Positions 35-15,012 of a DNA stretch of 64,000 nucleotides are shown piece after piece. The stretch lies in NCBI RefSeq assembly GCF_018771565.1, contig NZ_CP076326.1, positions 1,426,001-1,490,000 of the forward strand. Direction: 5' to 3'. This DNA comes from Thermoflexus hugenholtzii. Its GTDB lineage: Bacteria > Chloroflexota > Anaerolineae > Thermoflexales > Thermoflexaceae. Position 1 is the stretch's first letter. The number at the start of each line of letters is the position of its first letter. The position numbers and the translations under genes are program-made. The notes under the pieces were generated by a model, which worked only from the letters and a program-made list of their open reading frames with translations, made no database searches and was not told where the DNA came from.

Positions 35-3000
35 ATGGCGGAGTTGACGTGGACAGGGTTTGTGTTGAGCAGCATCGTGGCGGGCATCCTCGGCAACCGG
101 GCCGACGCCGTTTTCTGCAGCCTCTGGCGAACGATTTACGACCGCCTGCGTCGAGGGGATCGTCCGGTCCGCGACCTGCAACAGGCGATCCGCAGAGCCC
201 TCCTTCAAGCTACCCGGAGCCTGCTCTCCGACGCCCTGAGGGAACGGGGCGTGGATGTCCAAAATTTGGTCTCCCGCTTTTCGCGTCGCCTTCCCTTCGG
301 TCAACCGAGAGACGAGGAGAGCCGATGGCTCTGGCGGGCCTATCACGAACTCACCGCCGAGCTGGGCAGGGTTTCCGATGCCGAATATGTGCCGCCGTCG
401 TCGGTTGCGGAAAGCCGGCTGGCCTTCTTGCTGCAACCGCAAGGCGTCGCCGCCGAGGAACGGGGGAAGGAGCTGCGCGAGCGCCTGACGAACGAGTGGC
501 TGCAGGAGCTGAGGGGATGGTTCGGCGAGCCGCCGGAGGTTTTCATCAAGCGGCTGCGGGAGGGATGGCAGCCGCCCGAGGGGGCCGGGCGGGTTTCCTG
601 GTTCGACCTGGTTTGCGCCTTCTTCGCCCATGAAGTCAAACACAACGACGTCGTCTTCCGCATCGTCACCGCGAAGCTGCTGGCGGGCCTGGAGGTGGAC
701 GGACGATCCCTGGGCGACGCGTTCCTCGATTACCTGGAAAGGCAGTTCGCGCCTGTTCTGGAACGCCTGGAGGCCGTTCAACGGCAACTGGAGGAGCTGG
801 GGCGGCAGCAGCGGGAGGGCTTCGAGGAGCTGAAAGCGCGACAGGCGGAGCTGACCGCCATCCTGCTGCCGATGCGGGAAACGCAACAGGCGCTGCAGGC
901 GCTGCTCGCGGATGCAGCCGGATGGGTTCGCTGGATCGCGGAGCGCTTCGGCGTCAGCCACGTCGCCGCCTACTTAGACCGCGCGACGCGCCGGTTCCTG
1001 TGGGAGAAGTGGGCGCAGGGCTTCGTCGGCCGGAAGGGGGCGATGGAGCGCCTGAACCGCTTCATCGCCGCCAATCCGAACGGGGTCGCCGTCGTCTACG
1101 CCCCTGCCGGCTACGGCAAGACCGCTTTCCTGGCCCGCTGGATCCGGCAGGTGGAAGGAAGGTGGATCGGGCCGGCCGGGGATGGCGAGGCCCTCGTGGA
1201 AGCCGTTTGCCACTTCTTCAGCACCGCCGTAGCGAAGTCAACGGAGCCGCCCAACGCTTACGCTCACCTGCTCGCCCAGCTGGCCCGCCTGTCCAACTCG
1301 CCCTTCCCCATTCCCGACCGGGACGACGAGCGGTGGGCGGCCCTGCACAACCTCCTCGCCGACCGGCGATGGCCCCCGGGCGTCAAAGCGGTCCTCGTCC
1401 TGGACGGCCTGGACGAGGCGGAAGGAAAAGTCGAGCCCTTCGTCCCCCGCCCCATCCCCGACGGTCTTTTCGTCATCGTCTCGGGGCGGTGGGACGGCAA
1501 GGGCAAGCCGCCCCCTTACCTGAAGGAGTGGGCGAGGTTCGCCGAGTTCATCCCGCTGGAGGCCCTCTCGGAGGAGGAAATCCGGGAGTGGCTGCGGACG
1601 ACGGGCGAGGGCGAGCTGGCCCAACTGGCCGAAAAAGCGGACTTCGTCCGGACGCTGTGGGAGAAGACCGGCGGGTTCCCGCTGTTCATCCGCTATCTGA
1701 TGGAAGACCTCGCGCAGGCGGTCCGGCACGGGCGATCGCCCGAGCAGGTCCTGGAGCAAACGCCTTCCGGCTTCTCGGAGTATGTTCAGGAGCAATTCGG
1801 ACAGCTGGCGAAACTGGTTCGCAACGAAAAGGGGGTTCGGGACTTGTTCGCCTTGTTGACGGTGGCGAAAGGCGCTTTGCGTCAGGACGAGGCGGAGGAG
1901 TTGACGGGGCTCTCCGTCTGGGATTTGGAGGGTCTCCCGTATTCAGTCATCCGCTGGTTCTCCATCGGCCGGGACGAGGAACAGGAGACCTACGCCTTCG
2001 CCCACCCCCTGCTGGCGGAGGAGTTCCGCCGGCACCTGGGCCGCGAGGCAAAGGAGATGGAGGACCGGCTGCTGCAGTGGTGCGCCGGCTGGCCGGCGCA
2101 TCCCTCCCCCTACATCCTGCGCCACTACGCCGATCACCTCCACGAGAAGGGGGACCCCGCCCTGTTCCGGCTGGCCCTGGACCCGGCCTTCGCCGAGGCC
2201 CAGGCCCGGCATCTCCCCGGCGAGCCCCACCTGCCCCTGAAGACCGTCCGGCTGGCCCTTGAGATGGCCATCCGGTCGGAGGACGCGCCGAGGATGGCGG
2301 CGCTGCTGATCGAGCACGCCCGGCGGGCGGGCGGGGAGGAGACGCCCCTGCAGGCGTGGCGGCGGGGGCATCGGGAGCGGGCGCTGCGGATGGCGACGGA
2401 GATCCTCTTCGAGCGGGACCCCCGGCTGGGGACGCTCTGGAGCCTGCTGCTGGCCTGGGCGGCGGAAAGCGAGGGCGAGGGGGAGTGGGCCCGGCGCATC
2501 CTGGAGGCGGCGCGCAAGCGCTGGGAGGGGGCGAAGCTGGAGAAGTTGGAGGATTGGCAAGGGGAGCTGGCGGCGTTCTGGCTGGGGGAGCTGGGGGCGG
2601 TGGAAGGGGCGGCGGAGGCGGCGGGCCTGATGCTGGATGATGCGCACAAGGGGAAGGTGGCGGCGGGCTGGGCTTCCCGGGGGCTGTTCGACCGAGCCCT
2701 GAACGTGGCGGAAGGGATCCAGGAGGCATGGAAGCAGGCATCGGCCTTTGGGGCCATTGCGGAAGCCATGGCCAGGGCCGGAATGTGGGAGCAAGCCCGC
2801 CGAACGGCAGAAGCAATCAAAGAGGCTGGGGAGCGGGCATGGGCCTTGGGGGCCATTGCGGAGGCCATGGCCAGGGCCGGAATGACCCAGCAGGCCCTTT
2901 GGGAGCAAGCCCGCCGAACGGCAGAAGCAATCAAAGAGCCACGGGAACGGGCAGAGGCCTTGGGGGCCATTGCGGAGGCCATGGCCAGAGCCGGAATGAC

Positions 3001-5857
3001 CCAGCAGGCCCAGGAAGCCTTCCACCAAGCCCTCCAAACGGCAGAAGCAATCAAAGGGGCATGGGAACAGGCTTGGGCCTTGAGGGCCATTGCGGAGGCC
3101 ATGGCCAGGGCCGGAATGACCCAGCAGGCCCTTTGGGAGCAAGCCCGCCGAACGGCAGAAGCAATCAAAGAGCCACGGGAGCGGGCATGGGCCTTGGGGG
3201 CCATCGCGGAAGCCATGGCCAGCGCCGGAATGACCCAGCAGGCCCAGGAAGCCTTCCACCAAGCCCTCCAAACGGCAGAAGCAATTAAAGAGGCTGGGGA
3301 GCGGGCATGGGCCTTGGGGGCCATTGCGGAGGCCATGGCCAGGGCCGGAATGACCCAGCAGGCCCAGGAAGCCTTCCACCAAGCCCTCCGAACGGCAGAA
3401 GCAATCGAAGAGCCACAGGAGCGGGCAAAGGCCTTGGGGACCATTGCGGAGGCCATGGCCAGGGCCGGAATGACCCAGCAGGCCCAGGAAGCCTTCCACC
3501 AAGCCCTCCAAACGGCAGAAGCAATCAAAGGGGCATGGGAACAGGCTTGGGCCTTGAGGGCCATTGCGGAGGCCATGGCCAGGGCCGGAATGACCCAGCA
3601 GGCCCTTTGGGAGCAAGCCCGCCGAACGGCAGAAGCAATCAAAGAGCCACGGGAACAGGCTTGGGCCTTGAGGGCCATCGCGGAAGCCATGGCCAGCGCC
3701 GGAATGTGGGAGCAAGCCCTCCGGACAGCAGAAGTAATCGAAAGGGCACGGGAGCGGGCAGAGGCCTTGGGAGCCATCGCGAAAGCCATGGCCAGCGCCG
3801 GAATGTGGGAGCAAGCCCGCCGAACGGCAGAAGCAATCAAAGAGCCACGGGAACAGGCTTGGGCCTTGAGGGCCATCGCGGAAGCCATGGCCAGCGCCGG
3901 AATGTGGGAGCAAGCCCTCCGGACAGCAGAAGTAATCGAAAGGGCACGGGAGCGGGCAGAGGCCTTGGGAGCCATCGCGAAAGCCATGGCCAGCGCCGGA
4001 ATGTGGGAGCAAGCCCGCCGAACGGCAGAAGCAATCAAAGAGCCACGGGAACAGGCTTGGGCCTTGAGGGCCATCGCGGAAGCCATGGCCAGCGCCGGAA
4101 TGTGGGAGCAAGCCCGCCAAACGGCAGAAGCAATCAAAGAGCCACGGGAACAGGCTTGGGCCTTGAGGGCCATCGCGGAAGCCATGGCCAGGGCCGGAAT
4201 GACCCAGCAGGCCCAGGAAGCCTTCCACCAAGCCCTCCGAACGGCAGAAGCAACCGAAGAGCCACGGGAACAGGCTTGGGCCTTGTGGGCCATTGCGGAA
4301 GCCATGGCCAGCGCCGGAATGTGGGAGCAAGCCCGCCAAACGGCAGAAGCAATCAAAGAGCCACGGGAACAGGCTTGGGCCTTGGGGGCCATCGCGAAAG
4401 CCATGGCCAGCGCCGGAATGACCCAGCAGGCCCAGGAAGCCTTCCACAAAGCCCGCCGGACAGCAGAAGCAATCAAAGAGCCACGGGAACGGGCAGAGGC
4501 CTTGGGGGCCATCGCGGAAGCCATGGCCAGGGCCGGAATGTGGGAGCAAGCCCGCCGAACGGCAGAAGCAATCAAAGAGCCACGGGAACGGGCGGAGGCC
4601 TTGAGGGCCATTGCGGAAGCCATGGCCAGGGCCGGAATGACCCAGCAGGCCCTTTGGGAGCAAGCCCGCCGAACGGCAGAAGCAATCAAAGAGGCTGGGG
4701 AGCGGGCATGGGCCTTGAGGGCCATTGCGGAGGCCATGGCCAGGGCCGGAATGTGGGAGCAAGCCCGCCGAACGGCAGAAGCAGTCGAAGAGCCACAGGA
4801 GCGGGCAAAGGCCTTGGGGGCCATTGCGGAGGCCATGGCCAGGGCCGGAATGACCCAGCAGGCCCAGGAGGCCTTCCACCAAGCCCTCCAAACGGCAGAA
4901 GCAATCAAAGGGGCATGGGAACAGGCTTGGGCCTTGAGGGCCATTGCGGAGGCCATGGCCAGGGCCGGAATGACCCAGCAGGCCCTTTGGGAGCAAGCCC
5001 GCCGAACGGCAGAAGCAATCAAAGAGCCACGGGAACAGGCTTGGGCCTTGAGGGCCATCGCGGAAGCCATGGCCAGCGCCGGAATGTGGGAGCAAGCCCG
5101 CCAAACGGCAGAAGCAATCAAAGAGCTACGGGAACAGGCTTGGGCCTTGAGGGCCATTGCGGAAGCCATGGCCAGGGCCGGAATGTGGGAGCAAGCCCGC
5201 CAAACGGCAGAAGCAACCGAAGAGCCACGGGAACAGGCTTGGGCCTTGTGGGCCATTGCGGAAGCCATGGCCAGCGCCGGAATGTGGGAGCAAGCCCGCC
5301 AAACGGCAGAAGCAATCAAAGAGCCACGGGAACAGGCTTGGGCCTTGGGGGCCATCGCGAAAGCCATGGCCAGCGCCGGAATGACCCAGCAGGCCCAGGA
5401 AGCCTTCCACAAAGCCCGCCGGACAGCAGAAGCAATCAAAGAGCCACGGGAACGGGCAGAGGCCTTGGGGGCCATCGCGGAAGCCATGGCCAGGGCCGGA
5501 ATGTGGGAGCAAGCCCGCCGAACGGCAGAAGCAATCAAAGAGCTACGGGAACGGGCGGAGGCCTTGGGGGCCATCGCGGAAGCCATGGCCAGGATCGGGG
5601 AAGCGGAGGGAGCGGCTGGCATCATGGAGCGAGAGATCGGGGCGCGGGAGCAAGGATTGCTCGCCGTCCTTCAGGCGCTGACCGAACGGGCGCAGGAAGA
5701 GGACGAAAAGAGCAAGCGGGTCTTCCTGCGGCTGCTCCCCCTGTGCGGCTGGTCGCTGGAGCTGGCCTATTCCGCCTGCGGGCTGCTGGCCCGGCTCTAC
5801 CCGCACCAGGCGGAAGGGATCGCCCGGGCGATCCGCGGCATGCCGCCCGCGGCGTAG
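35..5857 (+). CDS. STAND/NACHT-type ATPase with long TPR-like repeat array
   Basis: 1940 residues. Residues 1-240 are an unrecognised, mostly helical N-terminal domain. A coiled coil follows at about 245-290 (LERLEAVQRQLEELGRQQ). The P-loop NTPase domain has Walker A APAGYGKT (Lys362) and Walker B VLVLDGLDE (Asp457, Asp460, Glu461), an arrangement typical of STAND/NACHT ATPases. A helical region leads into 26 near-identical repeats at residues 916-1854, then a short unique tail ends the protein. In the STAND family the repeats are the sensor, the ATPase is the oligomerising switch and the N-terminus is the effector; many members act in antiphage defence or signalling. That role is inferred here, because the effector domain was not identified. 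The start has a GGGGGG stretch about 8 bases upstream. The window begins 34 bases before the gene, so its upstream neighbours are unseen. Several long open frames overlap it on both strands but are by-products of the repeats. Confidence 0.85.
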   Translation: MAELTWTGFVLSSIVAGILGNRADAVFCSLWRTIYDRLRRGDRPVRDLQQAIRRALLQATRSLLSDALRERGVDVQNLVSRFSRRLPFGQPRDEESRWLWRAYHELTAELGRVSDAEYVPPSSVAESRLAFLLQPQGVAAEERGKELRERLTNEWLQELRGWFGEPPEVFIKRLREGWQPPEGAGRVSWFDLVCAFFAHEVKHNDVVFRIVTAKLLAGLEVDGRSLGDAFLDYLERQFAPVLERLEAVQRQLEELGRQQREGFEELKARQAELTAILLPMRETQQALQALLADAAGWVRWIAERFGVSHVAAYLDRATRRFLWEKWAQGFVGRKGAMERLNRFIAANPNGVAVVYAPAGYGKTAFLARWIRQVEGRWIGPAGDGEALVEAVCHFFSTAVAKSTEPPNAYAHLLAQLARLSNSPFPIPDRDDERWAALHNLLADRRWPPGVKAVLVLDGLDEAEGKVEPFVPRPIPDGLFVIVSGRWDGKGKPPPYLKEWARFAEFIPLEALSEEEIREWLRTTGEGELAQLAEKADFVRTLWEKTGGFPLFIRYLMEDLAQAVRHGRSPEQVLEQTPSGFSEYVQEQFGQLAKLVRNEKGVRDLFALLTVAKGALRQDEAEELTGLSVWDLEGLPYSVIRWFSIGRDEEQETYAFAHPLLAEEFRRHLGREAKEMEDRLLQWCAGWPAHPSPYILRHYADHLHEKGDPALFRLALDPAFAEAQARHLPGEPHLPLKTVRLALEMAIRSEDAPRMAALLIEHARRAGGEETPLQAWRRGHRERALRMATEILFERDPRLGTLWSLLLAWAAESEGEGEWARRILEAARKRWEGAKLEKLEDWQGELAAFWLGELGAVEGAAEAAGLMLDDAHKGKVAAGWASRGLFDRALNVAEGIQEAWKQASAFGAIAEAMARAGMWEQARRTAEAIKEAGERAWALGAIAEAMARAGMTQQALWEQARRTAEAIKEPRERAEALGAIAEAMARAGMTQQAQEAFHQALQTAEAIKGAWEQAWALRAIAEAMARAGMTQQALWEQARRTAEAIKEPRERAWALGAIAEAMASAGMTQQAQEAFHQALQTAEAIKEAGERAWALGAIAEAMARAGMTQQAQEAFHQALRTAEAIEEPQERAKALGTIAEAMARAGMTQQAQEAFHQALQTAEAIKGAWEQAWALRAIAEAMARAGMTQQALWEQARRTAEAIKEPREQAWALRAIAEAMASAGMWEQALRTAEVIERARERAEALGAIAKAMASAGMWEQARRTAEAIKEPREQAWALRAIAEAMASAGMWEQALRTAEVIERARERAEALGAIAKAMASAGMWEQARRTAEAIKEPREQAWALRAIAEAMASAGMWEQARQTAEAIKEPREQAWALRAIAEAMARAGMTQQAQEAFHQALRTAEATEEPREQAWALWAIAEAMASAGMWEQARQTAEAIKEPREQAWALGAIAKAMASAGMTQQAQEAFHKARRTAEAIKEPRERAEALGAIAEAMARAGMWEQARRTAEAIKEPRERAEALRAIAEAMARAGMTQQALWEQARRTAEAIKEAGERAWALRAIAEAMARAGMWEQARRTAEAVEEPQERAKALGAIAEAMARAGMTQQAQEAFHQALQTAEAIKGAWEQAWALRAIAEAMARAGMTQQALWEQARRTAEAIKEPREQAWALRAIAEAMASAGMWEQARQTAEAIKELREQAWALRAIAEAMARAGMWEQARQTAEATEEPREQAWALWAIAEAMASAGMWEQARQTAEAIKEPREQAWALGAIAKAMASAGMTQQAQEAFHKARRTAEAIKEPRERAEALGAIAEAMARAGMWEQARRTAEAIKELRERAEALGAIAEAMARIGEAEGAAGIMEREIGAREQGLLAVLQALTERAQEEDEKSKRVFLRLLPLCGWSLELAYSACGLLARLYPHQAEGIARAIRGMPPAA
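2780..5596 (+). repeat. In-gene tandem array of 26 TPR-like units (99/114/120 bp)
   Basis: The array holds exactly 939 codons: 13 units of 33 residues (starting GMWEQARRTAEAIKE), 5 of 38 residues (GMTQQALWEQARRTAEAIKE) and 8 of 40 residues (GMTQQAQEAFHQAL). All share the tail ALxAIAEAMARA. The 38-residue unit is the 33-residue unit with TQQAL inserted near its start. A degenerate unit (FDRALNVAEG) precedes the array. Nucleotide identity between units is very high. A 198-bp, two-unit block is tandemly duplicated at about 3639-3836 and 3837-4034, and larger blocks recur (units 7-8 match 20-21; units 14-16 resemble 23-25). This indicates recent expansion by recombination. Confidence 0.92.
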
Positions 5858-6121
5858 ATCCCCGGGGTTCGAAGGGAAGATCCGGCCGGGCGATCCATCG
5901 CCGCATCGAGGCTCCCCGCCTTCGGCCGCGCCGGTTGGCCGGACCGCCGTCCAGGGGGCTTCGGGGGAAGGCGATGGGCCGCGGGCCGGGCCGAACCCGC
6001 CCCGGCCTTCCCGAGGTCCGAACCCCGGCGCGGCGCGCCGGGGCCTTCCAGACATGCAGGACAACTGTGAGCAGTTGCCCCGCATGCGGAAAAGCCGGAG
6101 CGCCCCGGCGCCGCGCGCGGG
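5858..6121. other. Non-coding interval with partial palindrome
   Basis: No gene is supported here. Near 6050-6080 there is a GC-rich hairpin (CATGC arm, core ACAACTGTGAGCAGTTG). It resembles the inner stem of the 74-bp element that starts at 6122 and may be a decayed third copy. Confidence 0.5.
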
Positions 6122-6195
6122 TGTGTCCTGATTTTGTCGGGCCCGGCCGCCTTGTAGGACAACCGCAAGCAGTTGTCCTACGATCTTGGGACACA
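6122..6195. repeat. 74-bp palindromic dispersed repeat, copy 1
   Basis: The outer inverted ends are TGTGTCC and GGGACACA. An inner hairpin has 10-bp arms, GTAGGACAAC and GTTGTCCTAC. A second copy with the same 74-bp length lies at 16757-16830 and differs at only about four positions. This is a MITE- or REP-like element with no coding capacity; the family was not identified. Confidence 0.8.
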
Positions 6196-6215
6196 CCCCC
6201 GCGCGCCGGGCCCCC

Positions 6216-6243
6216 TTGACAAAATCGAAAACCCGGATATATT
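6216..6243 (+). promoter_or_regulatory. Sigma-70 promoter of the lys operon
   Basis: -35 TTGACA (6216-6221), a 16-base spacer, then -10 TATATT (6238-6243). Transcription would begin near 6250, leaving a leader of about 200 bases before lysW. Confidence 0.75.
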
Positions 6244-6275
6244 TAGAGCCAAACTGAGGGAGCCGCCCCTGCTCT

Positions 6276-6359
6276 ATGGAACGCCGAACGCTGTGGATGG
6301 CGTGCATCAAAAAAGCCGCTGCGCCTCCAGGCCCGGACGGTAGTCCGGTCCTGACGTAG
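6276..6359 (+). CDS. Putative lysine-rich leader peptide of the lys operon
   Basis: A 27-codon reading frame runs from ATG 6276 to TAG 6357. An in-frame ATG at 6297 would give 20 codons. It contains the tandem lysine codons AAA AAA at 6309-6314 (peptide MACIKKAAAPPG). It lies between a strong promoter and an intrinsic terminator, directly upstream of lysine biosynthesis genes. Leader-peptide attenuation of the lys cluster is known in Thermus thermophilus, so the same logic is likely. The ribosome-binding site is weak: GAGGGAG about 13 bases before the first ATG. Translation is inferred, not shown. Confidence 0.55.
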   Translation: MERRTLWMACIKKAAAPPGPDGSPVLT

Positions 6360-6405
6360 CGGCTTTCTCATCCGTCAGGATCCTCACCCCCAGACTGCCG
6401 TCCGG
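6309..6405 (+). promoter_or_regulatory. Attenuator hairpins in the lys leader
   Basis: A long hairpin pairs 6312-6323 (AAAGCCGCTGCG) with 6355-6366 (CGTAGCGGCTTT). An inner stem is formed by CCGGAC and GTCCGG. Its 5' arm overlaps the Lys codons and its 3' arm holds the leader stop codon. Two competing pairings are visible: 6347-6356 with 6373-6382 (10 bp, one wobble), and 6333-6343 with 6395-6405 (11 bp, one wobble). The second would occupy the loop of the downstream terminator. Mutually exclusive folding that depends on ribosome position is plausible, but no energies were calculated. Confidence 0.5.
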
Positions 6406-6426
6406 CGGCCTGGGGGTTTTCTTTTT
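6386..6426 (+). terminator. Intrinsic terminator in the lys leader
   Basis: Stem ACCCCCAG (6386-6393) pairs with CTGGGGGT (6410-6417), with a further GC-rich stem inside the loop and a TTTTCTTTTT tract after it. It ends about 30 bases before the lysW start, so it must act as an attenuator rather than as the end of an upstream gene. Confidence 0.8.
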
Positions 6427-6455
6427 GCCCCAAACCCAGGCGAAGGAGGTGCGCG

Positions 6456-6626
6456 ATGGCCCAGGCGATGTGTCCGGAGTGCGCGGCCGGCGTGCCGCTG
6501 CGGGAGGACGTCATGCTCCACGAGTTCCTCACCTGCCCCGAGTGCGGGACCGCCCTGGAGGTGGTCTCCCTCTCCCCGCTGACCCTCGACCGGGCGCCCC
6601 AGGTGGAAGAGGACTGGGGGGAGTGA
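6456..6626 (+). CDS. lysW: LysW amino-group carrier protein
   Basis: 56 residues. LysW is the carrier protein of the aminoadipate lysine pathway: alpha-aminoadipate is attached through its amino group to the side chain of the C-terminal Glu, and intermediates stay attached until lysine is released. Two CPEC motifs (residues 6-9 and 27-30) form the zinc site. The protein ends in the family signature EDWGE. A strong AAGGAGGTG ribosome-binding site lies 5 bases before the ATG. The lysX start follows 3 bases after its stop. Close relatives also carry glutamate for arginine synthesis in some archaea; the gene order here favours lysine. Confidence 0.95.
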   Translation: MAQAMCPECAAGVPLREDVMLHEFLTCPECGTALEVVSLSPLTLDRAPQVEEDWGE

Positions 6627-6629
6627 GCG

Positions 6630-7547
6630 ATGCGGATCGCCATATTCTGCTCGCTGGTGCGCACGGAGGAGAAGTGGCTGCTGGAGGCGCTCCGACGCCG
6701 GGGGGCGGAGGTCGAGGTCCTCCACGATCGCTCCGCCGTCCTGGAGGTCGGCGCAGGGGAGCGCTGGCGCCGGTTCGACGCCGTGCTGATGCGCTCCCTC
6801 AGCCACTGGCAGGCCTTCCACGCCGCCCGGCTGCTGGAAGACCTGGGGCTGCCGGTGATCAACCCCTCCGCGGTGATCCACACCTGCTCCGACAAGCTCC
6901 TCACCACCGCCGCCCTGGTCCGGGCCGGGATCCCCACCCCTCGGGTGAAGGTCGCCTTCTCCCCCGAAGGCGCCCTGCAGGCCATCGAGGAAATGGGCTA
7001 CCCGGTGGTCCTGAAGCCGGTGCTGGGCTCCTGGGGCCGGCTGCTGGCCCGGGTGAACGATCGCGACGCCGCGGAGGCCCTCCTGGAGCACAAGGAGACC
7101 CTGGGGGGCTTCGCCCACGGCGTCTACTACATCCAGGAATACATCCCCAAGCCGGGGCGGGACATCCGGGCCTTCGTGGTGGGCGGGGAGACGGTCGCCG
7201 CGATCTACCGGACCTCGGCGCACTGGATCACCAACACGGCCCGGGGCGGGCGCGCCCTCAACTGCCCCATCACCCCGGAGCTGGCGGCGCTCTGCGCCCG
7301 GGCCGCGGCCGCAGTCGGCGGCGGGGTGCTGGCCCTGGACCTCTTCGAGGATCCGCAACGGGGGCTGCTGGTCAACGAGATCAACCACTCCATGGAGTTC
7401 CGCAACTCCGTGGAGCCCACCGGGGTGGACATCCCGGGGGCGGTGGCGGACTTTGTGCTCCGGGTGGCCCGGGAGGGCTGGGCCGCGGCCCACCGCGCCC
7501 TTCCCCAGGAGGTCGGGCAATGGAACGGGTCCGCGTCAGCATCGTAG
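6630..7547 (+). CDS. lysX: Alpha-aminoadipate--LysW ligase LysX
   Basis: 305-residue ATP-grasp enzyme that joins alpha-aminoadipate to the C-terminal Glu of LysW. Visible features are the ATP-grasp core [15 protein letters not shown], the segment ITNTARGG near residue 200, and the metal-binding [14 protein letters not shown] near the C-terminus. It lies between lysW and lysY and its 3' end overlaps the lysY start by 28 bases, implying translational coupling. A RimK/ArgX-type role on glutamate is the alternative; the operon makes the lysine role more likely. Confidence 0.93.
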
Positions 7548-8560
7548 GCGCCTCGGGATACGTGGGCGGGGAGCTGCTGCGCCTGCTGCTCCGGCATCCT
7601 TACGTGGAGATCGCCCAGGTCACCTCGGAGTCCCATGCCGGGGAGCCGGTGCATCGCGTGCACCCGCACCTGCGCAAGGCGACGGGGCTGACGTTCTGCC
7701 GCATGGCGGATCTGAAGCCCTGCGATATCCTCTTCATCGCCCTCCCCCATGGCCAGGTGGCGCCCCGCATCGAGGCCTTCGCGGCCCTGGCTCCTGTCCT
7801 CGTGGACCTCTCCGCCGATTTCCGGCTCCGCCGGCCGGAGGACTACGCCCGCTGGTATGGCCATCCCCACCCCCATCCGGAGTGGCTGTCCCGCTTCGTC
7901 TACGGCCTGCCGGAGCGCTACCGGGCGGAGCTGCGCGGGGCCCGCGCCATCAGCGGGGTCGGCTGCAACGCGACCGCCGCCATCCTGGCCCTCTGGCCCC
8001 TGGTCCGGGCCGACCTGCTCGACCCGGAGCGGCCGGTGATCGTGGACATCCAGGCCGCTTCCTCGGAGGCCGGGCGCGAGCCGAACCCGGGCTCCCATCA
8101 CCCGGAGCGCCACGGGGCGATCCGCCCCTACGCCCCCGTCCAGCACCGGCACACCGCCGAGGTCCGCCAGGCCCTCGGCCGCGAGGGGGTGGTCCTCTCC
8201 CTCACCGCCGTGGACGCCGTGCGGGGGGTGCTGGCGATCGCCCACGCCTGGCCCCGGGATCGCATCGCCGAGCCGGAGCTGTGGCGGATCTACCGGGCCG
8301 CTTACAGCGAGGAGCCCTTCATCCGCCTGGTGAAGGATCGTCAGGGCGTGCACCGGCTGCCGGATCCCAAGGCGGTGGTGGGGAGCAACTTCGCGGACGT
8401 CGGGTTCGCGGTGGAGGAGGAGACGGGACGGATCGTGGCCCTGTGCGCCCTTGACAACCTGATGAAAGGCGCGGCGGGCTCCGCCGTCCAGTCCCTCAAC
8501 GTCGCCATGGGCTGGCCGGAGACGGCCGGCCTGGATCTGATCCCCGTGTATCCCGCGTGA
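7520..8560 (+). CDS. lysY: LysW-gamma-aminoadipyl phosphate reductase LysY (ArgC family)
   Basis: 346 residues. NADPH-dependent reduction of the LysW-bound aminoadipyl phosphate to the semialdehyde. The Rossmann motif [14 protein letters not shown] is at the N-terminus and the catalytic Cys149 sits in SGVGCNATA. The His-rich segment [13 protein letters not shown] is typical of the ArgC/LysY family. The start was set at ATG 7520, preceded by AGGAGGTCGGGCA inside lysX; the frame stays open far upstream but that part overlaps lysX and is not coding. ArgC of arginine synthesis is the paralogue to exclude. Confidence 0.93.
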
Positions 8561-8574
8561 GGGGAGGCGGAAGG

Positions 8575-9399
8575 ATGTGGGTGATCAAGCTGGGAGGGAA
8601 CGCGGCGGTGAACGCGGAGGCGGTGCTGGAGGAGCTGGCCGCCTGGGCCCGGGAGGGCCGGCGCTGGGTGCTGGTCCACGGGATCTCGGCCGAGGCCGAC
8701 GCGCTGGGGGAGGCCCTGGGCCATCCGCCCCGCTACATCACCTCGGCCTCGGGCTTCACCAGCCGATACACCGACGCCCGCACCCGGGACATCCTGCTGA
8801 TGGCCTACGGCCGGGCGAACGCCCATCTGGTGGCCGCCCTCCACCGGCGCGGCGTCCCGGCCATCGGCCTGCGGGGGATCGACGGCGGGTTGCTCCGGGC
8901 CCGGCGGAAGGAGGCCCTGCGGGTGCGGGAGGGCGAGCGGATCCTGATCCTGCGGGGGGATTACTCCGGCACCCCCTCCGGGGTGAACGAGAGGCTCCTG
9001 CGCGCCCTGCTGGATCAGGGGCTCTACCCGGTGATCGCCCCGATGGGGCTGACGCCGGATGGGGAGATCGTCAATGTGGATGGGGATCGGGCGGCGGCGG
9101 CCCTGGCGGCCGCCCTGAGCGCGGAGGGCCTGATCTTCGTCACCGGGGCGCCGGGGTTGCTCCGGGCCTTCCCCGATGAATCCACCCGGGTGCCGCGATT
9201 GACCCTCCCGGAGCTGGAAGCGGCGATGGCCTGGGCCCAGGGCCGGATGCGCCACAAGCTGCTGGCCGCCCGCGAGGCCCTGACGGGCGGCGTGCCGCAG
9301 GTCCTCCTGGCCGATGGCCGGCGGCCCGCCCCCCTCGCCGCGGCCCTGAACGGGAACGGCACCCGAATCGATGCCGACGGGCACGGGCGGGTCGAATGA
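8575..9399 (+). CDS. lysZ: LysW-aminoadipate kinase LysZ (ArgB family)
   Basis: 274 residues of the amino-acid kinase family. It phosphorylates the side-chain carboxylate of LysW-bound aminoadipate. Motifs: KLGGNAAVN at the N-terminus, LVHG near residue 40, and VNVDGDRAAAALA for ATP/metal binding. ATG 8575 follows the ribosome-binding site GGAGGCGGAAGG; a GTG at 8557 would add six residues with no better signal. lysZ is the last gene before the 0.77-kb repeat cluster that separates it from lysJ. Confidence 0.92.
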   Translation: MWVIKLGGNAAVNAEAVLEELAAWAREGRRWVLVHGISAEADALGEALGHPPRYITSASGFTSRYTDARTRDILLMAYGRANAHLVAALHRRGVPAIGLRGIDGGLLRARRKEALRVREGERILILRGDYSGTPSGVNERLLRALLDQGLYPVIAPMGLTPDGEIVNVDGDRAAAALAAALSAEGLIFVTGAPGLLRAFPDESTRVPRLTLPELEAAMAWAQGRMRHKLLAAREALTGGVPQVLLADGRRPAPLAAALNGNGTRIDADGHGRVE

Positions 9400-10170
9400 G
9401 GCGGGTCGAATGAATTCGACCTCAAAGGGCCTTCGGCCAGCGTCGGCTTGTGCGCCGAATGAATTCGGCCTCCAGAGGCCTTCGGCCGACGGTCGGCTTT
9501 ATGCGTCGAATGAATTCGACCTTGAAGGGCCTTTGGCCAACGGTCGGCCTGCGCCGACCGAAAAATACTCTCCGCGTCGGCGAAGGCCGACGCCTGGCGC
9601 GTAGCACCTGAGAAGGCCGATTTCAATCGGCGCGAAGGCCTCCGGCCAGCGGTCGGCTTGTCCGCCGAATGAATTCGGCCTCCAAAGGCCTCCGGCCGAC
9701 GGTCGGCCTGCGCCGACCGGAAAGGCATTCCTTGCGTCGGCGAAGGCCGACGCCCGGCGCGTAGCGCCTGAGAAGGCCGATTTCAATCGGCGCGAAGGCC
9801 TTCGGCCAGCGGTCGGCTTTATGCGTCGAATGAATTCGACCTTGAGGGCCTTCGGCCAACGGTCGGCCTACGCCGACCGGAAAGGCATTCCTTGCGTCGG
9901 CGAAGGCCGACGCCCGGCGCGTAGCGCCTCAGAAGGCCGATTTCAATCGGCGCGAAGGCCTCCGGCCAGCGGTCGGCATGCACGCCGAATGAATTCGGCC
10001 TCCAGAGGCCTTCGGCCGACGGTCGGCCTGCGCCGACCGAGAAAAACCCTTTGCGTCGGCGGAGGCCGACGCCTGGCGCGCAGCGCCTTGGAAGGCCGAT
10101 TTCAATCGGCGCAAAGGCCGACGCCCGGCGCGAAAGCGCCTGCCGCCCACCCAGGCCGATTCCCATCGGC
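9400..10170. repeat. Cluster of ~160-bp composite palindromic repeats inside the lys operon
   Basis: The palindrome GCCGATTTCAATCGGC recurs at 9616, 9776, 9936 and 10095, a period of 159-160 bp, with a variant at about 10157-10175. Interleaved are six copies of G(T/C)CGAATGAATTCG(A/G)C (9405, 9454, 9505, 9664, 9825, 9984), copies of AAGGCCTTCGGCC, and four copies of GCGTCGGCGAAGGCCGACGC. Almost every segment is self-complementary, so the transcript would be heavily folded. Frames open through it are of low complexity and lack start signals. No transposase gene is present. Confidence 0.88.

Positions 10171-10195: not shown

Positions 10196-14996
<4,801 letters not shown>

Positions 14997-15012
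<16 letters not shown>

Follow-up and report, generated by a model that had tools for sequence, protein, structure and literature searches.

We propose that the lysW gene of Thermoflexus hugenholtzii is preceded by a transcription attenuator, ribosome-mediated and responsive to charged tRNA-Lys, a reading to which we assign a probability of about 0.87. Four lines of computational evidence lend support to it, and to the first-pass annotation that had placed lysine-codon attenuation upstream of lysWXYZ: conservation of the leader within the genus, the occurrence of lysine-rich leaders across the class, folding that depends on the position of the ribosome, and leader codons whose identity follows the type of ligase encoded downstream. 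The mechanism would thus be a known one, here in a lineage new to it and with a variant form of the antiterminator. RNA polymerase would start near position 6250 of the window (the whole 64,000-nucleotide stretch analyzed here; all features described below lie on its forward strand), and a ribosome would initiate synthesis of a leader peptide. Given sufficient lysine, this ribosome would reach the stop codon at 6357, where it would mask part of the antiterminator together with one arm each of helix I (3′) and helix II (5′), such that the terminator at 6386-6417 would end transcription. Under lysine shortage, the ribosome would pause at the AAA AAA codons with its leading edge near 6324, blocking helix I, and positions 6333-6345 would pair with the emerging loop and inner stem of the terminator, allowing polymerase to continue into the lysine operon, beginning with lysW. 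If the leader is not translated, helix I and hairpin P would form and the terminator would win.

The elements called for by this mechanism are present in the window. A consensus promoter had been noted upstream of the leader, and a near-consensus sigma-70-type promoter, TTGACA-16-TATATT, is indeed found at 6216-6243 (11/12 consensus matches; shuffles of the region, mean 0.1). As in leader-peptide attenuators, a short ORF coding for lysine, the product of the pathway, lies between the promoter and lysW. This ORF of 27 codons, MERRTLWMACIKKAAAPPGPDGSPVLT, runs from the ATG at 6276 to the TAG ending at 6359 and contains, as previously recorded, the putative regulatory codons AAA AAA (Lys-Lys) at 6309-6314, which are invariant in the seven lysW-bearing genomes of the genus. 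Two observations count against an attenuator: no strong Shine-Dalgarno sequence precedes the leader ATG in the genus, and members of the genus have just two Lys codons in the leader. The frame of the leader ORF is kept in the relatives, yet without a good Shine-Dalgarno sequence. Directly 5′ of the promoter, at 6119-6199, lies a palindromic repeat of ~80 bases with ends GGTGTGTCC and GGACACACC, present in ~40 copies in the genome (one 3.3-Mb contig) and not seen at the same place in the sister genome G004. Further 5′, window positions 35-5857 encode a protein of 1,940 residues that matches an ATPase domain weakly and contains many near-identical TPR-like repeats.

Downstream of the leader, lysW (carrier protein; 6456-6626, TIGR01206 above cut-off) is followed by lysX, encoding a ligase with the motif NHSMEFRNS (6630-7547, TIGR02144 above cut-off), a lysY/argC-type reductase gene (7544-8560, start approximate, TIGR01850), lysZ for the [LysW]-aminoadipate kinase (8557-9399, NF010659), a lysJ-type aminotransferase gene (10196-11395, start approximate, TIGR00707 above cut-off; best match NF042418 LysJ, below the cut-off of that model), lysK for the [LysW]-lysine hydrolase (11392-12480, NF003367), and genes for homocitrate synthase (12494-13687, TIGR02146) and a member of the homoaconitase large subunit family (13636-15012, start approximate, TIGR01343). 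By these assignments, the operon produces lysine via the aminoadipate route, in keeping with an attenuator that senses lysine. Inside it, between lysZ and lysJ (9405-10119), a 160-base tandem repeat occurs in four copies.

The leader RNA (6250-6430) folds better than its shuffled counterparts, with a z of -4.7 against 200 dinucleotide shuffles. In the minimum free energy fold, helix I (12 bp) pairs 6312-6323 with 6355-6366; its 5′ arm begins at the second AAA, and it is predicted to form when the Lys codons are free of ribosomes. It corresponds to the long hairpin described earlier as overlapping the Lys codons. Enclosed within helix I is hairpin P (6333-6348; CCGGAC-GGTA-GTCCGG, 6 bp), which gains four pairs (6328-6331 with 6350-6353) once helix I forms. 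The T-tailed terminator of the first reading was likewise recovered: the stem spans 6386-6417, the T tail extends to 6426, 30 bases before the lysW ATG at 6456, and the element sits between the leader ORF and the first gene, as expected of an attenuator. The pairing formerly given between 6333-6343 and 6395-6405 was confirmed and proved longer, at 13 bp including one G-U (6333-6345 with 6393-6405); this antiterminator targets the loop and inner stem of the terminator, with a further extension onto the terminator 3′ arm (6327-6333 with 6407-6413). It is conserved and mutually exclusive with the terminator, again in the manner of an attenuator. The second pairing proposed at that stage, 6347-6356 with 6373-6382, stands as an 8-bp helix II (6349-6356 with 6373-6380), which is nested inside the antiterminator and is not its rival. 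Scoring the longest complementary run between leader and terminator as its length minus 0.5 per G-U yielded 12.4 in the window, compared to 6.3 with shuffled leaders.

Growing transcripts were then folded without a ribosome, with a ribosome at the Lys codons, or with a ribosome at the stop codon, assuming a footprint of the A site plus 15 nt; all energies are model values. In the absence of a ribosome, helix I, hairpin P and the terminator form. When the ribosome sits at the first Lys codon (edge at 6324), the antiterminator with its nested helix II is the best structure from 6405 through 6421. When the edge is set at 6327, the antiterminator is best until 6416 and approximately equal to the terminator state thereafter; with energies this close at full length the outcome would depend on kinetics, and this near-tie counts against the attenuator reading. 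Placing the ribosome at the stop codon leaves just the terminator. Folding at 65 °C gave the same pattern. Across the seven genus members, the mean terminator advantage (energy relative to the best alternative with the antiterminator allowed to compete, capped such that 0.0 means that the terminator is not favored) was -15.1 kcal/mol in free RNA, -2.9 kcal/mol with a stalled ribosome and -22.0 kcal/mol with the ribosome at the stop. The shift from free to stalled was +12.2 for the real leaders and -0.5 when the leader was shuffled and the terminator kept. The outcome of folding is thus predicted to depend on the position of the ribosome, and the comparison of folds with and without a ribosome at the Lys codons, which had been suggested as a check, returned a three-state switch in silico.

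Alignment of related leaders, another check suggested, bore out the conservation of the Lys codons and terminator in each of the seven genomes of the genus that carry lysW (counting that of the window; lysW was not found in two less complete genomes of the genus), as well as that of the T tail and alternative pairings, while the covariation it offers is thin owing to the few variable positions. TTGACA is present in 7/7 genomes, starting 57-65 nt 5′ of the leader ATG, and the distance from the ATG to AAA AAA is exactly 33 nt in six of the seven, with intervening codons that vary. Paired cells amount to 84/84 for helix I, 91/91 for the terminator (including a compensatory A-U to G-C change at 6397:6406), 91/91 for the antiterminator and 56/56 for helix II; sequence changes in the genus thus break no pair in any of the four switching helices (0 broken cells). 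The 3′-arm extension is less well kept (52/56 cells, counted in a nearby 8-pair register). In three genomes (G000, G007 and G008), full pairing of the first AAA is prevented by the continuation of the 3′ arm (TTTCT, TTTAG and TTTTG, respectively), and this codon is invariant even there. In G007 (locus L008), insertion of a single base past the Lys codons changes the leader frame, creating a new TAG stop inside hairpin P with loss of the old stop, and Lys-Lys is still in frame with an ATG. Such a pattern would be expected if the Lys codons matter and the tail of the peptide does not.

LysW scored above the cut-off in 250 of 396 genomes of the class Anaerolineae, and 127 upstream regions were examined, seven of them from the genus, drawing on 100 loci retrieved in addition to an initial set; the resulting counts are not independent of phylogeny, and the terminator and ORF rules are our own. 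A strong terminator was found within 260 nt in 69/127 lysW upstream regions. The rule used detected none in the other 58/127; that many relatives have no recognizable leader counts against the attenuator reading. When a Lys leader was defined as an ATG ORF ending 14-48 nt before the terminator with at least three Lys in nine codons, 32 of the 69 terminator-bearing loci had one, compared to 0.23 in dinucleotide shuffles and 0 in the reverse complement. Typical Lys leaders end, immediately before the stop, in KKSKAKKPDLRSG, KRAKKPRTPLPDTRSG or KKQVKKQMPDPGVW; they span about ten families besides that of the window, and their recurrent PDxxSG is coded by a hairpin resembling hairpin P (CCGGAC..GTCCGG). 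Mean leader-terminator complementarity was 8.5 for Lys leaders, 6.6 for mismatched locus pairs and 5.7 for shuffled leaders, and covered two thirds of the terminator loop on average; at several loci of family f4 it falls on the terminator 5′ arm rather than the loop. The loop-targeting antiterminator put forward initially is real in the window and recurs in many Lys leaders of the class, without being universal.

These data bear on whether the window might simply hold a plain terminator preceded by a chance ORF, with no sensing of amino acids. Short ORFs are common and no good ribosome-binding site precedes the leader ATG; however, both the Lys codons and the alternative pairings are kept in 7/7 genomes, some ten further families also have Lys leaders, and the promoter lies upstream of the terminator, which therefore acts on the transcript of lysW itself. 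We accordingly regard a chance ORF as very unlikely.

Applied to arginine, the same rule returned Arg-rich leaders (RRARAKR, RKRAKR and similar) at twelve loci (L029, L031, L036, L037, L059, L061, L072, L075, L087, L097, L214 and L216). Leader codons follow the type of ligase. At all 22 Lys-leader loci with a readable ligase, one ligase carries N[HY]TMEF[RK]NS, the motif of Thermus LysX. The correspondence holds mostly for arginine: ligases with PEF occur at 10/12 Arg-leader loci, usually as a PEFRNS and PEFHGA pair, the remaining two loci having SEFHTL and MMEFGRS. It also holds within single genomes, as G364 and G187 each carry both kinds of cluster with the matching leaders (the Lys leader of G187 being partly masked). 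The Sulfolobus protein in 3vpb, which we take to be ArgX, reads PEFKGF at this motif position, and the PEFHGA ligases appear to be ArgX-like. Within the LysX/ArgX family, a five-residue signature separates glutamate from aminoadipate (PMC10433800). Leader codons would independently indicate the product of a LysX/ArgX homologue and may be useful for annotation. In both kinds of leader, a stalled ribosome is predicted to weaken the terminator by >2 kcal/mol relative to free RNA (24/32 Lys leaders and 12/12 Arg leaders), with mean shifts of +5.4 and +6.8, respectively, against -1.6 and -1.1 in shuffles.

That codon content tracks ligase type is not predicted by a metabolite-binding RNA, and this argues against a terminator governed by an RNA-binding protein or an undescribed riboswitch that would use the alternative helices, the ORF being incidental. 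Such control could account for the 93% identity within the genus of the RNA spanning AAA through the T tail, which exceeds that of the start of the peptide, but no Rfam match was obtained even at a relaxed threshold, save one chance-level hit, and the frame-shifted leader of G007, with its new stop, retains Lys-Lys in frame with an ATG; we consider it very unlikely. It is likewise very unlikely that helix I is the working terminator, opened by translation of the leader, with the loop-targeting antiterminator secondary, for although in several genus members terminator scoring picks up the helix I hairpin and a T-run follows it in some (TTTTTT in G003), the tail in the window (TTTCTC) is poor for termination and such an arrangement needs neither a conserved antiterminator nor Lys codons.

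The proposed attenuator has its closest known counterpart in Thermus thermophilus, whose lys genes are reportedly under leader-peptide attenuation, as Tsubouchi et al. are said to have described in J Biol Chem in 2005. Leaders from nine Thermus genomes and relatives were compared. The Thermus lys and window systems share a leader peptide with AAAAAA, an intrinsic terminator, an antiterminator and downstream genes of the aminoadipate pathway to lysine, but the Thermus leader, exemplified by MLARAKKLGRRGVG, precedes homocitrate synthase whereas that of the window precedes lysW. The antiterminators also differ. In Thermus the paired segment begins 5-9 nt ahead of the terminator (3-6 nt in other Thermaceae) and extends no further than the initial bases of its 5′ arm, in contrast to the loop in the window; a Thermus-type pairing just upstream of and onto the terminator 5′ arm was looked for in the window leader and not found. 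Enteric trp, his, leu and thr attenuators resemble the window leader in having regulatory codons in or beside the first arm of a leader helix, a stop near the second arm, and a terminator with a competing antiterminator. In enteric bacteria the antiterminator captures the terminator's 5′ arm, whereas in the window it captures the loop, the inner stem and some of the 3′ arm. In other phyla, the lysine riboswitch (RF00168) and T-box (RF00230) likewise act on lysine genes by termination; covariance-model searches of the leader matched neither, and control of the leader by either was rejected on these grounds. Most descriptions of amino-acid leader-peptide attenuation come from Proteobacteria and Actinobacteria. 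Outside these groups, a 2010 survey recognized only its own Firmicutes case (PMC2965389), although the Thermus case had reportedly been published.

Attenuation of this kind appears to be a widespread means of regulating the LysW-dependent synthesis of lysine and arginine in a class of the Chloroflexota. We find it reasonably probable that the class holds a family of lysW attenuators in which the antiterminator often falls on the terminator loop, the leader codons (Lys or Arg) have switched together with the substrate specificity of the neighboring LysX/ArgX ligase, and, in some families, two Lys attenuators act in tandem on a single transcript. Serial arrangements of two Lys leaders with two terminators were found at twelve loci, eleven of them convincing (upstream of lysW at L015, L018, L030, L032, L051, L053, L070, L074, L091, L104 and L116), and in none of the shuffles. 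Peptides of unit 1 often resemble KxSKSKKPSxAW[DE]G and those of unit 2 KPDxxSG. Tandem units and loop-directed antitermination represent testable design variants. At L015 and L070, a perfect sigma-70 consensus precedes unit 1 with nothing comparable between the units, and at L051 and L053 zero bases separate terminator 1 from ORF 2.
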